A DNA stretch of 62,133 nt from an uncultured Fibrobacter sp. (GTDB taxonomy: Bacteria > Fibrobacterota > Fibrobacteria > Fibrobacterales > Fibrobacteraceae). Where the stretch lies: NCBI RefSeq assembly GCF_947305105.1, contig NZ_CAMZCS010000018.1:1-62133 (forward strand), in the 5' to 3' direction. This document shows, piece by piece, positions 10,296 to 51,305 of this stretch; the stretch's first letter is position 1; every line of letters starts with the position of its first letter. Both the position numbers and the translations under genes were made by a program. Below the pieces are notes generated by a model. That model searched no databases. It worked only from the letters and a program-made list of their open reading frames with translations, and was not told the DNA's origin.

Positions 10296-11894
10296 TTAAA
10301 TTCTTGCGATTATCGCGTTCAGGCTGAGGCCGCCGTGGCTTGTGACGATGTTTTTTGCGTCGGAGTTTTGTTGTGGGTCAAGTGCGGGGCATTCGTGCAG
10401 CAGGTTCGCGGTGCATGTGTATTTAGAGCCTGGGCGTGAATCGTCTTTAGGGGCGAGGATGGCGACCGTGAGTTGCTTGCCGAGGGGCGCAAGTTCGCGG
10501 GCGAGTTCTGCAAGTTTCTTGCCGATTTGCGTATAAAGTTTTGGTGCGTCAAAGTCGAGACGCTTGCCGTAGGGCGGGTTCAGCACGATGACGGGGGCGG
10601 ATTCTCCGCAGAGGTCTGCAATTTCTTTTGCCGTGTAGCTGAAAAAGTCGCGAAGCTGTGGGCTGATTGTTGGTGCGTTAGCGCTCGGAGCGATGTTTGC
10701 GAGCGGGCAACATTCCACATTGTGCTGGATGATTTCAACTGCCCTTTCCGAAATATCGGAGGTGATGATTTTGTGAATCGTGCTGGAGATTGCCGCAGTC
10801 ACTTCGTTCCTTCGCAATGACAACATGGAATCATCGTTCCTTCGCAATGACAACATGGAATCATCGTTCCTTCGCAATGACAATATGGAATCATCATTCC
10901 CTTGCAATGACAATATGGAATCATCGATCTTTTGCAATGACAACTCGGAATCATTGTTCCTTCGCAATGACGGATTCGGGTTTGCGTTTGCCGAATTGAC
11001 AATGTGGTTCCAGGTTGCGGGTTTGAACGCTGGCTGGTGCTTGAGTGCGAAGTCTCGGCATTTGCCAGGAATGAGCCCGTGTGCCATGTAGGCCGCTTCG
11101 AGGCTGAAGGTGCCGCTGCCGGACATTGGGTCAATAAGAGTGATTAGTGGTTGGTGGTTGGTGGTTAGGATGGCGGCATTGAATGCTTCTTGGAGTATTG
11201 CGGCGGCGATGGTTTCTTTGAGCGGGGCGTCGTTCACGAAGCGTTCGTGACCGCGTTTGTAGAGTTCTTCGCCGGCGAGGTCAAGCCAGAGTGTGCATCG
11301 GTCGTCAATCAGCGTGACGTAGAGGCTTGAGGTATGAGGTGCGAGGTCGCTCGCTTCGCTTTTCGGGGCGTTGCGGGGTGTCCCCGCAGAGGGGGTAGCG
11401 GAAGACCCGACAGGGGCTGAAGCGAGGGGGAGACTTCCCCCTTCAATCACTTTCAGCAAACGTTCGGCGACGGCGTCACTGTGGTACAGGCGCGAATGTT
11501 TGCAAGTAACGTGAATAGTGGTTAGTGGTTGGTGGTTAGTGGTTAGGAAAAGTTCCCAGGGAATCTCGGCGGCTTTCTTTTCTAGCTCGCGGAAATTTTC
11601 GGCCTTGAAATCGGCGATGTGCACCAGGATGCGGTTGGCGATGCGGCTGAATGCCACGATTTTCCAAGCGTCGACGAGTTTTGCCGTAAATTCAACTTTC
11701 CCGTCACCGGCAATTTTTATGTCTAGCGAGTTTGTGCCTTGATTTTCGACACTCTCTCGTCTTAAAAAGTCCATTTCCCTGACGAATGTTTTTTCGAACC
11801 CGAGCGGGACAACGGCCAAGAAGCGGTGAGGTTTTCCTATGACCTGCCGCTTGAGCCTTTTGTCGAATGCTGAATTTTTTTCTGCGCTGTCCAC
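10296..11894 (-). CDS. RlmL-like 23S rRNA (guanine-N2) methyltransferase with in-frame repeat insertions
   Basis: A 532-residue protein: an N-terminal THUMP-like region (about 20-130), then an SAM methyltransferase domain with motif DPMSGSGTFSLEAAYMAHG near 255 and the amino-methyltransferase motif LNPPYGKR near 440. Relatives are usually about 380-400 residues. The excess is made of sequence that matches intergenic repeats: TTNHQPLTT (about 115-125), a Pro/Ser/Ala stretch ending LAPHTSS (about 150-190), TTNHQPLIT (about 242-252) and six NDDSxLSLRR-type units (about 307-365). All preserve frame, and the catalytic motifs lie outside them, so the enzyme may still work. The stop is 5 bp from the toxin-antitoxin promoter. 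Confidence 0.85.
   Translation of the reverse strand: MDSAEKNSAFDKRLKRQVIGKPHRFLAVVPLGFEKTFVREMDFLRRESVENQGTNSLDIKIAGDGKVEFTAKLVDAWKIVAFSRIANRILVHIADFKAENFRELEKKAAEIPWELFLTTNHQPLTTIHVTCKHSRLYHSDAVAERLLKVIEGGSLPLASAPVGSSATPSAGTPRNAPKSEASDLAPHTSSLYVTLIDDRCTLWLDLAGEELYKRGHERFVNDAPLKETIAAAILQEAFNAAILTTNHQPLITLIDPMSGSGTFSLEAAYMAHGLIPGKCRDFALKHQPAFKPATWNHIVNSANANPNPSLRRNNDSELSLQKIDDSILSLQGNDDSILSLRRNDDSMLSLRRNDDSMLSLRRNEVTAAISSTIHKIITSDISERAVEIIQHNVECCPLANIAPSANAPTISPQLRDFFSYTAKEIADLCGESAPVIVLNPPYGKRLDFDAPKLYTQIGKKLAELARELAPLGKQLTVAILAPKDDSRPGSKYTCTANLLHECPALDPQQNSDAKNIVTSHGGLSLNAIIARI
10801..10970 (-). repeat. 30-bp tandem repeat inside the rRNA methyltransferase gene
   Basis: About five and a half copies of a 30-bp unit, on the plus strand TTCGCAATGACAACATGGAA followed by TCATCGTTCC, with base changes accumulating from left to right. 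The TTCGCAATGACAA core is the same as in intergenic copies near 12880, 14350, 14530 and 16270. Because 30 is a multiple of 3, the array stays in frame and encodes NDDSMLSLRR-like repeats. Confidence 0.93.
11325..11445 (-). repeat. intergenic-type GC-rich repeat within the methyltransferase coding region
   Basis: This stretch joins a GAGGTATGAGGTGCGAGGTC element (also intergenic at 14280-14340 and 16140-16200) with an AGGGGGTAGCG...ACAGG...GAAGCGAGGGGG element. The second element also lies intergenically near 37060-37160. Here it is read in frame as protein. Confidence 0.8.
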
Positions 11895-14228: not shown

Positions 14229-14581
14229 ACTTATCTCCAAAATACGTTTTCAGGTTCGAGGCTCGAGGCACGAGCAGTGAGCTGTGAGGTGTGAGGTATG
14301 AGGTCGCGCTACGCACTCTGAGGTATGAAATTCCTGGCACGAGCTATTCGCCCCTCGCAATGACAACCCCAGTTCCTACTTCCTACTCTCTCGTCTATTT
14401 CCCTAACCACTAACCACCAACCACTGTTTACTTTCCTCACACCTCAAAGGGAGCGTTAGCGACCGACCTCAAAGGCACGAAGTGCCGACCTCATACTTAG
14501 AGATTGCTTCAGGGCTATTCGCCCTTCGCAATGACAACCCCAGTTCCTACTTCCTACTGTCTACTTCCTACTTCCTACTTC
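14229..14581. repeat. intergenic repeat nest, no gene seen
   Basis: A 353-bp spacer filled with repeats: GAGGTGTGAGGTATGAGGTC, two copies of a CGCAATGACAACCCCAGTTC unit followed by CTACTTCC runs, CTAACCACTAACCACCAACC, and short tandem TTCCTACTTCCTAC. An upstream GGAGATAAG for paralog A2 is included at its right... edge (higher coordinates begin at 14229). No coding region or RNA gene was recognised. Confidence 0.85.
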
Positions 14582-15274
14582 CTACCTCGTTTCGCACTCA
14601 GCAATTCTTTCATTGACTCTTTCGAGGGCTTTTTTGAAATCCTTGCGCTTGATTTCGTCTGCCGCCAAGAGGTTGTTGATGTAATTGTCGTCAACGATAA
14701 CATCTTCAGATTCGGAATGGCAGGGGACGACGCCATAGTCTAATGCTGCTGCACCAATGAGGTACGTGGCGGACTTGTAGCAGTTCTTTAAACTCTGGGG
14801 AAGAGACGCTCCTTTGGGACTTTCTAGAAACGCTTCTATTCTGTCGTCTACAACCCGTGCTGCCTCGAATTCACCACTTCGAACCATATAAGCGATGTAT
14901 TCCGAATTCTCATCGGCTAGAATTCCATTAATGCAAGCCTGATATCCTGATACGGTTGTCCCTCTTAATCCAGTCGTGTCTGGCCTTTTCAGTTTTGAAA
15001 GTTCCTCTTCGATATTGAAAAATGCATTGGAAGTCCCATTAGAACTTGTTATCGATTCGCTAGAAGAAGTTGGAAAGGGCTCACTGGAAGATGTTGGAAC
15101 GGAACCATTGGAAGATGTTTGAATGGATTCACTGGATGAACTGGCTGGATTATTGCCTGCTTGGGGTATGGTAATGTCTGGTGCGCTGGCAGAGTCGCTG
15201 CCACAGGCGGTCCACAGAAGCGCCGTGGATGAAATGAACAGATTTCCAAAAATTTTACGCACTCTTTTATTCAT
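14582..15274 (-). CDS. Ser-rich lipoprotein, tandem paralog B2
   Basis: A 230-residue probable lipoprotein. The ATG at 15274 is chosen because the protein then begins MNKRVRKIFGNLFISSTALL with lipobox WTAC, matching its paralogs; an in-frame upstream extension has no such support. A Ser/Thr linker (about 30-70) leads to the domain FFNIEEELSKLKRPDTTGLR, TTVSGYQACINGIL and DDNYINNLLAADEIKRKDFK. The domain is closely similar to paralog B1, also at DNA level in the 3' part. Function unknown. Confidence 0.8.
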   Translation of the reverse strand: MNKRVRKIFGNLFISSTALLWTACGSDSASAPDITIPQAGNNPASSSSESIQTSSNGSVPTSSSEPFPTSSSESITSSNGTSNAFFNIEEELSKLKRPDTTGLRGTTVSGYQACINGILADENSEYIAYMVRSGEFEAARVVDDRIEAFLESPKGASLPQSLKNCYKSATYLIGAAALDYGVVPCHSESEDVIVDDNYINNLLAADEIKRKDFKKALERVNERIAECETR

Positions 15275-23302: not shown

Positions 23303-23345
23303 TAGAAAAAGACGAGAGACGAGGGACGAGAGACGAGAGGCGAGA
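23303..23345. repeat. ACGAGAGACGAG low-complexity repeat
   Basis: A run of GACGAGAGACGAGGGACGAG type units upstream of hisS. The reverse complement (CTCTCGTCTC) recurs at 49880-49925 and 50560-50620, where it is inside coding sequence. Confidence 0.85.
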
Positions 23346-49812: not shown

Positions 49813-50475
49813 TTAAACTGTGTCATGCCCGCCTTGACGGGCATCTCCTTTTGTTTCTCGAGCCTCGGGCCTGGAGCCTCTCTCGTCTTTCGTCTGTAGG
49901 CCCGTAGGGCCGTTCTCTCGTCTGAGTCGGTACGGCTTTCCCGTGCTCATCTGGTAGGCGAGGCGGGCGCGGACTTGTTCCAAATATTGGATGTACTTTT
50001 CGCTCTGGTAATCGCGGTAGGTCCAGTCGAAGGCGTGGAAGTGCCCGTCCTGGAAGTAAAGCGTCGGCTCCACGAAGATCCCGCGCTGCATGTACACGCG
50101 CTGGCGCTGGTCCTTGGTGGTGGCGAGGAAAAACTGCCCGAGTGTCATGTAGCCCGGGTCGAGGTTCACGGGCCGCAACCCCGGAGTGCCGTTCTTTTCG
50201 GCGATTTCGAGCTCGATATCGTTTGTCCAGAGCTTGATGTCTACGATGGTTTCGCGTTCCACCAGGTTCTCGTAGCTGAAGAACGCGCGGACGGGGGCGC
50301 TGCCGATTTCGTCAACGTAGTAGTTGGTGAACGTAAAGGGGAATGGGGCTAGGTTCAGGTCTTCGGGGCCGAACTTTTCGCACAAAGTCTCCCGTACCGA
50401 TTCGACCGCTTGCGAATCTTTTGCGAGGATGCCCACGATAATCTTGACCTTGGCCGGTGTCCTGAGTTCGCCCAT
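49813..50475 (-). CDS. DUF4416 family protein with repeat-derived tail
   Basis: A 220-residue protein whose first 185 residues match DUF4416 as I know it: GELRTPAKVKIIVGILAKDS, PFPFTFTNYYVDEIGSAPVR, NLDPGYMTLGQFFLATTKDQ, GIFVEPTLYFQDGHFHAFDW. Function unknown. The last 35 residues (RENGPTGLQTKDERGSRPEA, RETKGDARQGG) are encoded by intergenic repeat families (CTCTCGTC, GCCCGCCTTGACGGGCAT), so the original stop seems to have been lost into a repeat. The start is only 26 bp from the divergent glutaminyl cyclase gene. Confidence 0.82.
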   Translation of the reverse strand: MGELRTPAKVKIIVGILAKDSQAVESVRETLCEKFGPEDLNLAPFPFTFTNYYVDEIGSAPVRAFFSYENLVERETIVDIKLWTNDIELEIAEKNGTPGLRPVNLDPGYMTLGQFFLATTKDQRQRVYMQRGIFVEPTLYFQDGHFHAFDWTYRDYQSEKYIQYLEQVRARLAYQMSTGKPYRLRRENGPTGLQTKDERGSRPEARETKGDARQGGHDTV

Positions 50476-50501
50476 GCCAAGTAATTTAGTAATTTTACGC
50501 C

Positions 50502-51305
50502 ATGAGCATTTTCAACCGAAGTTTTCTTTTGGTGATAAGATCCCTGAGCCTGCCGAAGGGATCCTCTCTCATCTCTCGTCTCCTGCCTCTCGTCTTCCTT
50601 CTCTCGTCTCTCGTATTTGCCGAAACCCCGCGCGTTGTGCCGACCATTGTGGATTCCGTTTCGCACGAGACGTCCCATTTTACGCAAGGCCTTTTCTTTG
50701 ACGGTTCCGATTTGATCGAAAGTACGGGCCAGTATGGCGGCTCGGGACTTTACCGCCGCACGCTCGAAGGGAAAATCCTCGATTCCGCACGCCTTGTTGA
50801 ACGCTATTTCGGCGAGGGTTCCGTGGCCGTGGGGGAGGACATCTTCTACCTCACTTGGAAATCGAAAAAAGCGTTTATCTACAATCGCAAGCCGTTCAAG
50901 GCGAAGGGCGAGTTCCGCATCCCGACAGAAGGATGGGGGCTTACGTATTGGCACGACGCCCTGCTCATGAGTAACGGTTCGGATGAACTTTTGAAAATCG
51001 CCCTGGGAGCATTCAACGTCATCGGAACAATCCATGTGACCGATGAAGGTAGGCCTGTGCCTATGCTCAACGAATTGGAAGTGGTCGGGAACACGCTTTA
51101 CGCCAACATCTGGCAGACGGCGCTAATCGCCGTCATCGAACTCCCCAGCGGCAAGGTTGTCAAGTACCTGGATTTCTCCGCCAAGGCCAAGGACGTGAAA
51201 AAACGCTATCCCTCCGCCGACGTGCTGAACGGAATCGCCTACGACGGCAAGAACCTGTGGGTCACAGGGAAAAACTGGCCGCAGATCTACAAGATCAAGT
51301 TTTAG
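50502..51305 (+). CDS. glutaminyl-peptide cyclotransferase (beta-propeller type), exported
   Basis: A 267-residue enzyme that would form N-terminal pyroglutamate on secreted proteins. The domain begins VVPTIVDSVSHETSHFTQGL, with ESTGQYGGSGLYRR, FGEGSVAVGEDIFYLTWKSK, YWHDALLMSNGSDELLKI, LNELEVVGNTLYANIWQT and LNGIAYDGKNLWVTGKNWPQ, all typical of PF05096-type enzymes. The signal peptide core (LISRLLPLVFLLSSLVFA) is encoded by tandem CTCTCGTCTC repeat units that are intergenic elsewhere. Divergent from DUF4416. Exported Fibrobacter proteins with N-terminal Gln are possible substrates. Confidence 0.9.
   Translation: MSIFNRSFLLVIRSLSLPKGSSLISRLLPLVFLLSSLVFAETPRVVPTIVDSVSHETSHFTQGLFFDGSDLIESTGQYGGSGLYRRTLEGKILDSARLVERYFGEGSVAVGEDIFYLTWKSKKAFIYNRKPFKAKGEFRIPTEGWGLTYWHDALLMSNGSDELLKIALGAFNVIGTIHVTDEGRPVPMLNELEVVGNTLYANIWQTALIAVIELPSGKVVKYLDFSAKAKDVKKRYPSADVLNGIAYDGKNLWVTGKNWPQIYKIKF

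Follow-up and report, generated by a model that had tools for sequence, protein, structure and literature searches.

A dispersed seven-base-pair repeat as the probable source of a signal-peptide core in a Fibrobacter glutaminyl cyclase-like protein

Signal peptides tolerate sequence change, yet the natural origin of new ones is rarely caught. Can a short repeat scattered over a bacterial genome become one? The question is raised by a stretch of 62,133 nucleotides from an uncultured Fibrobacter sp., a gut bacterium (RefSeq assembly GCF_947305105.1, contig NZ_CAMZCS010000018.1, positions 1 to 62,133; hereafter the window), in which a glutaminyl cyclase-like gene begins with a putative signal peptide whose hydrophobic core is coded by tandem heptamers (Table 1). 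I conclude that this core quite probably derives from an array of a heptamer dispersed over the Fibrobacter genome, (TCGTCTY)n, which was captured and has partly degenerated. The identity of the repeat, its excess over codon choice, its recurrence in orthologs and a single clear-cut replacement of a native signal are direct observations.

The cyclase matches the PF05096 profile from residue 41 to residue 267 (E 3.5e-70; 236.7 bits, against a curated cut-off of 22.3); NCBIfam returned no family for it, and the nearest named relatives of the locus are Fibrobacter metagenome assemblies. By inspection, its first 40 residues resemble a long Sec signal peptide: a charged n-region (N5, R6, R13, K19 and R26) is followed by a hydrophobic h-region and by small residues at -3 and -1, the charged part giving way to LLPLVFLLSSLVFA|ET and the leader ending in LVFA|ET. 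This leader would serve the export of the cyclase.

The core consists of the units CTCTCAT, CTCTCGT, CTCCTGC, CTCTCGT, CTTCCTT, CTCTCGT and CTCTCGT, in that order, and is followed by ATTTGCC. One unit phase fits 36 of the final 45 nt of the leader, the runner-up phase 23. A preliminary description of the window had read the core as tandem units of 10 or 12 bp; the tandem repetition is confirmed, as seven units at 50566-50614, and the unit length is corrected to 7 bp, TCGTCTY. The palindrome in the n-region is a separate element, upstream of the array. When the peptide was held fixed and its codons were redrawn 2000 times from ortholog codon usage, no synonymous version scored as high as the window, at 33 against a null mean of 7.9. 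The same description had allowed for a true start beyond the repeats, which is not borne out: the other possible in-frame starts, TTG 50529 and GTG 50532, both precede the array, and the first one after it, GTG 50637, falls within the conserved Pfam match.

The heptamer is dispersed over the genome. In G000, the window's own genome, the 12-mer ACGAGAGACGAG occurs 38 times and the two-unit match TCGTCTYTCGTCT 73 times, with no occurrence of either reversed control. Three-unit arrays are all but confined to the genus: of 150 genomes surveyed in the phylum 61 have one, namely 59 of 67 from the same genus and 2 of 83 others. One of these two, a member of another genus of the same family (G127), has 66 three-unit TCGTCTY matches, and nearly all other non-Fibrobacter genomes have none. 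Arrays were classified in G000 and in G072 (40 regions, from the 100 listed of 117 matches), in stretches picked for holding arrays, whose fractions are not genome averages; 57 of the 91 classified arrays are intergenic. The same family does lie between genes near position 23310, as first described, in the form of five units at 23311-23345 that read TCGTCTY on the minus strand. Array spans reach at most 55 nt, and some intergenic arrays, judged by eye, sit shortly before a start codon.

A period of seven is not peculiar to this unit. Around the cyclase, at 52 Fibrobacter loci, 31 of 38 arrays have period 7, with 12 different units (period 5-15, at least 2.5 copies; 30 period-4 arrays, only 10 nt long, were left out). 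The sampled G000 stretches contain 17 arrays with a period of 5-10 and three or more copies; all have period 7, 11 of the 17 being of the unit for which the stretches were picked. TCGTCTY is the most frequent unit in both samples. Outside the genus period-7 arrays are few (5 in 65 kb). Given the proportions of 31/38 and 17/17, the genus Fibrobacter has a habit of 7-bp arrays. At loci L121-L174, the window included, short tandem arrays are nearly all of period 7 regardless of unit; the window itself has (TTCCTAC)n at 14561-14585 and (GGTGGTT)n at 11147-11166.

Orthologs of the cyclase were collected in 61 rows, of which 59 have an assignable start (L171 and L172, in which no start was found, were dropped); L104 and L122 are one record by contig coordinates and count once among 58 distinct rows. 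A heptamer-coded signal (score at least 14, p <=0.005, 2000 redraws) is present in 27 of the 59 scored rows, or 26 of 58 distinct ones, and absent from the other 32. In the heptamer-type rows the 7-base lag has a mean of 12.7, against 3.2-4.5 for the other lags in the range 4-12. On a maximum-likelihood tree of the mature part the two states require at least 8 changes, a count that is approximate because good support is limited to 21 of the 57 inner branches. No single N-terminus is common to the orthologs; the comparison that the preliminary description had proposed thus did not turn up a shared N-terminus free of repeats. Rows such as L126 and L127 may carry decayed heptamers, and the cores of L020 and L166 are themselves periodic at 7 bp, though built from a different unit. 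The n-regions of L154, L156 and L152 contain other inserted sequence (LKSQPF.SV..FVGRDS.LK; GEPVEPL), repeat-derived in look.

All seven rows of the window's clade (six distinct genomes) are heptamer-type. The arrays of L121 and L125 differ by 21 nt, that is, by three heptamers or seven codons. L123 has the short form MFKPLVLLLTSLVFA without the palindrome; since its sister L125 has the palindrome, the short form more likely represents a loss than the ancestral state.

The exchange of a native signal is found in another clade, of 12 rows. Three of them (L129, L149 and L160) have the signal MISLLHR..., which four further non-heptamer rows share with small changes, and five (L134, L137, L138, L140 and L141) carry the heptamer-rich MKFVNMVNRLFFPILVLSSFVFRLSSYA. 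Compared with L129, L134 has 174 bp in place of the 87 bp holding the native signal, between flanks that agree at 97.8% upstream and 95.4% downstream. The 174-bp block ends in heptamers; it begins at the start codon of the divergent DUF4416-type gene and stops about 12 bp short of the mature part, the upstream region being replaced as well. Of 80 genus genomes, 5 match it over its full length and 61 match at least part of it; the shorter matches, many of them over its heptamer end, occur in most of the other genomes. In all ten pairs of the five rows the 187 bp before the mature part show 0-1 base differences, while the same pairs show 16-30 differences in the 500 bp upstream and 10-42 in the 690 bp downstream; about 8 would be expected in the leader stretch, the pairs not being independent. 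The block (L134:2315-2488, and the same place in the four other rows) is thus near-identical between flanks several per cent apart, and may be read as a recently spread 5' cassette. The direction from repeat to signal is apparent in this sister cluster, and for the window's own clade can only be inferred.

In two other secreted proteins of the genus, part of the orthologs carry the repeat in the signal. A protein of 678 aa, which matches no Pfam family, has sense heptamers in the signal peptide at two (L146 and L148) of the only four loci found; L130 and L167 have none. Orthologs of a DUF3450-like protein, whose match lies below the Pfam cut-off, were recovered from each of the 16 own-genus genomes searched; one row (L312) has no signal boundary and was left unscored, and among the 15 scored, sense arrays reach p <=0.001 in four (G010, G003, G004 and G013), that of G000 being weaker (p 0.0065). 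Antisense arrays in the n-region reach p <=0.001 in G003, G004, G001 and G006, so that G003 and G004 have both types. If translation began at a GTG or TTG further downstream, the antisense array might not be translated in G004, G001 and G006; in G003 the stretch from the antisense array to the core contains no ATG, GTG or TTG in frame. A further stretch of repeat-like sequence, TGTCATCCTGAGCGAAG...GTCGAAGGATCC (translated as CVILSEVEGS or CHPERSAKRGVEGS), is present in the n-regions of the G001 and G006 proteins (L316 and L319), and several kinds of repeat are thus combined in a single signal peptide.

A unit of 7 bp does not fill a whole number of codons, and an array therefore reads the same peptide in every frame, one per strand. 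Whichever the frame, (TCGTCTC)n is translated as SSLVSRL and its complement as ETRDERR; the T variant gives SSFVFRL in sense and KTKDERR in antisense. Within genes the charged reading predominates. The 39 arrays of G000 comprise 18 in genes, all antisense, and 21 intergenic ones, and the 52 of G072 comprise 11 antisense, 5 sense and 36 intergenic, which pooled gives 29 to 5 (two-sided binomial p 4e-5). Genes were called with a simple, crude, codon-based caller of my own; with a sense array in a G000 arginase-family gene that it missed the ratio becomes 29 to 6 (p 1.2e-4), and a likewise missed antisense case in a NUDIX gene (L089) would make it 30 to 6. In one of the five G072 sense cases (L194) the array probably lies upstream of the true start. 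Of the G000 antisense cases, 17 of 18 are in open reading frames (ORFs) with a Pfam match, one of these matches being weak. When LigA, a DegT aminotransferase and a NUDIX protein are aligned with solved relatives, the arrays stand out as insertions; in RsmG the array is part of a stretch that does not align. The spot in LigA is a hypervariable linker, with heptamers in 2 of 14 genus sequences (L238, which has an internal stop, was left out).

These data suggest how an array could be captured. Loops and tails of soluble proteins would accommodate the charged antisense reading; the hydrophobic sense reading would be accepted less often, yet lies near a Sec h-region, such that few substitutions might suffice. 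If recombination or slippage placed an array before a secreted protein, and the fusion still exported and survived, a sense array at the 5' end of the gene would replace the native core and leave the mature protein unchanged. The heptamers themselves might have multiplied by slippage, by recombination or through an unseen mobile element. More tentatively, and with rather less confidence than I place in the capture itself, one heptamer family could be a frame-proof, strand-switchable source of Sec signals, the sense strand supplying the core and the antisense strand a charged n-region; repeat-built 5' ends would replace native ones and then sweep through close species as a recombining cassette.

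The donor postulated in the preliminary description was a mobile repeat. The donor part stands, in that a genome-wide repeat forms the core and a native signal has been exchanged between sister species; that the repeat moves in the manner of a transposon is a conjecture. The presence of heptamers varies at LigA and at the cyclase, with no clean insertion boundary. Mobilisation of the type known for repetitive extragenic palindromic (REP) sequences and their REP-associated tyrosine transposases (RAYT) was considered and rejected: the Y1 transposase family PF01797 has no match in G000, it is present in 4 of 16 own-genus genomes, and G009, with two copies, has no three-unit array.

Several observations weigh against capture of the array as a signal. 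None of the 91 strict two-unit arrays of G000 and G072 lies in a recognisable signal peptide, although the window's own array, being imperfect, also escapes this strict pattern. Only 3 of 20 fetched places where ATGA is joined to an array, chosen by eye from a list for a likely start, are open for 100 aa; one of the three gives a clear signal peptide (G010) and two are EamA transporter N-termini. The orientation rule is a bias only, since the 18 to 0 of G000 weakens to 11 to 5 in G072. The window's clade contains no non-heptamer precursor, and the arrival of the repeat was not observed there. Finally, signal peptides were assessed by eye and with a crude script of my own, which missed the window's own cyclase. 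With this finder 1 of 62 signal-like ORFs passed in the G000 stretches, and that one is an artefact, its array lying ahead of a menaquinone gene (L093); in the loci around the orthologs the figure is 12 of 143, made up of ten cases of the cyclase and two of the 678-aa protein. Given how few signal-like ORFs pass and how few of the 20 places stay open, most arrays are not signals, and a few genes are recurrent takers. A search for heptamers followed by TTYGC returned 19 places in 80 genomes (2 matches in the reversed control): L103, L104 and L111 are the cyclase gene, L108 has an N-terminal extension of doubtful meaning, and many of the remainder are another element, in which heptamers precede TTTGCACTTCGTGCTAA or a near form.

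The alternative that fares best, though I consider it unlikely, is that the array acts at the DNA or RNA level, as a binding site or in translation control, and that selection keeps the DNA rather than the peptide. The arrays before start codons and the upstream part of the exchanged block fit this idea, as do the TAACTGA heptamers just upstream of Beggiatoaceae starts, for which a regulatory role is proposed (PMC4679880). However, the 32 scored orthologs without an array do without it, and in the window 3 of 7 units are degenerate while the peptide has remained hydrophobic; the three-unit length change, for its part, keeps the frame. A reversed course of events, in which the heptamers were born by slippage in signal-coding DNA and spread from there, is less probable still. 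In the window's clade the order of events is not visible because all seven rows are heptamer-type, which leaves room for it; yet most arrays lie outside signal peptides, other heptamer units are also common, and the L134 cluster lost a native signal and had a heptamer-bearing one put in. It is highly improbable that the resemblance arose by codon preference, that is, that signals rich in LSSLV and written in CTC, TCG, TCT and GTC mimic the repeat by chance. Signal peptides commonly contain Leu, Ser and Val, the codons CTC, TCG and GTC are not unusual here, and the LSSLV peptide is itself part of the resemblance, a part that the redraw test leaves untouched; nevertheless no redraw equalled the window and the seven-base register stands out. 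An artefact of assembly at repeats deserves hardly any credence, for although nearly all named relatives in the genus are metagenome assemblies, the arrays are short (<=55 nt), the same N-termini recur across project prefixes and the frames are open. Capture of a dispersed array thus remains the preferred explanation.

Table 1. Positions, in the window, of the cyclase gene, its repeat-coded leader and related repeat features
Feature	Coordinates	Strand	Basis or remark
Glu_cyclase_2 (PF05096; glutaminyl cyclase-like) gene	50502..51305	+	ATG 50502, 267 aa, stop included
Putative Sec signal peptide MSIFNRSFLLVIRSLSLPKGSSLISRLLPLVFLLSSLVFA	50502..50621	+	By inspection; cleavage expected after A40
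Palindrome GATCCCTGAGCCTGCCGAAGGGATC, 25 bp, in n-region	50539..50563	+	Sequence; not in short ortholog L123
Seven in-register heptamers (CTCTCGT, four perfect) coding hydrophobic core	50566..50614	+	Sequence, phase count
Intergenic array, five heptamers, same family	23311..23345	-	Reads TCGTCTY on minus strand
Divergent DUF4416 gene, C-terminal tail through heptamer + hairpin element antisense (...LQTKDERG...)	49816..50475	-	
Heptamers - GTAG hairpin - heptamer composite in DUF4416 tail	49881..49923	+	Sequence

The neighbourhood of the cyclase holds further repeat DNA. The DUF4416 gene is divergent from it, 26 bp separating the start codons (50475-50502), and its C-terminal tail, which extends past the Pfam match, is coded by repeat DNA read antisense. 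This DNA includes a short GTAG-led hairpin between heptamers, a composite also found at many G000 and G072 loci (L069-L101, L186-L225). A stem of at least 4 bp is present in 25 of 48 distinct spacers, with 13 stem sequences; self-complementarity is kept while the sequence varies, and a structure conserved independently of its sequence is unusual in a simple repeat. In 27 of the 59 scored rows TTAGTAATTTT or a close form lies a few bases before the cyclase ATG, a position that hints at leaderless transcripts.

Repeat-built signals show how spare DNA may be turned into a piece of a working protein. In close relatives nearly the same mature enzyme stands behind a native or a repeat-built signal, and the replacement can therefore be dated, assayed and counted. 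The underlying rule is simple: with a repeat length that is not a multiple of three, orientation rather than frame sets the fate of the repeat within a gene.

Insertion of repeats into genes has precedents. Rickettsia palindromic elements form a family of repeats that sit in frame within conserved proteins unrelated to one another; their unit is palindromic, whereas the heptamer array is a direct repeat with a separate palindrome beside it. For Fibrobacter, nothing on heptamers, or on heptamers as signal peptides, was found in open-access text, and in the F. succinogenes S85 genome paper (PMC3079729) "repeat" occurs once, in a reference title, while tandem, repetitive and intergenic are absent. 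TAACTGA heptamer direct repeats occur in Beggiatoaceae, Cyanobacteria and Bacteroidetes (MacGregor 2015, PMC4679880), and resemble the present arrays in being 7-bp direct units, mostly intergenic, with some in ORFs. The Fibrobacter arrays are likewise tandem, dispersed and largely intergenic, with a different unit, TCGTCTY. The TAACTGA repeat is given as reading LSVISYQ in reverse, its forward orientation containing stops (PMC4679880); in contrast, the Fibrobacter arrays are open on both strands, one hydrophobic and one charged, and form signal-peptide cores. GTAG- and CGTC-tagged REPs accompany RAYT transposases, and REPs inside genes are reported (PMC3733652). Fibrobacter heptamer arrays often flank GTAG-led hairpins, which is a point of likeness, but the signal-peptide array has no such hairpin and the genome no Y1 transposase. 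In archaeal Borgs tandem repeats create disordered regions, according to the title of PMC9879509, and thus also yield new protein segments; Borgs are giant archaeal elements, whereas the unit here is bacterial, 7 bp long, and gives a hydrophobic putative export signal. A repeat-derived signal peptide is already in print, that of RU-2 in Yersinia (Delihas 2007, PMC2759123), where the signal sequences predicted for orthologs from other genera are unrelated. RU-2 is a 168-bp element resembling a miniature inverted-repeat transposable element and represents one case, whereas the Fibrobacter 7-bp array recurs in one genus and in three proteins, and an exchange can be seen when close relatives are compared. 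Repeat-derived protein segments and heptamer arrays were already known; what appears to be new here is a heptamer array as a putative signal peptide.
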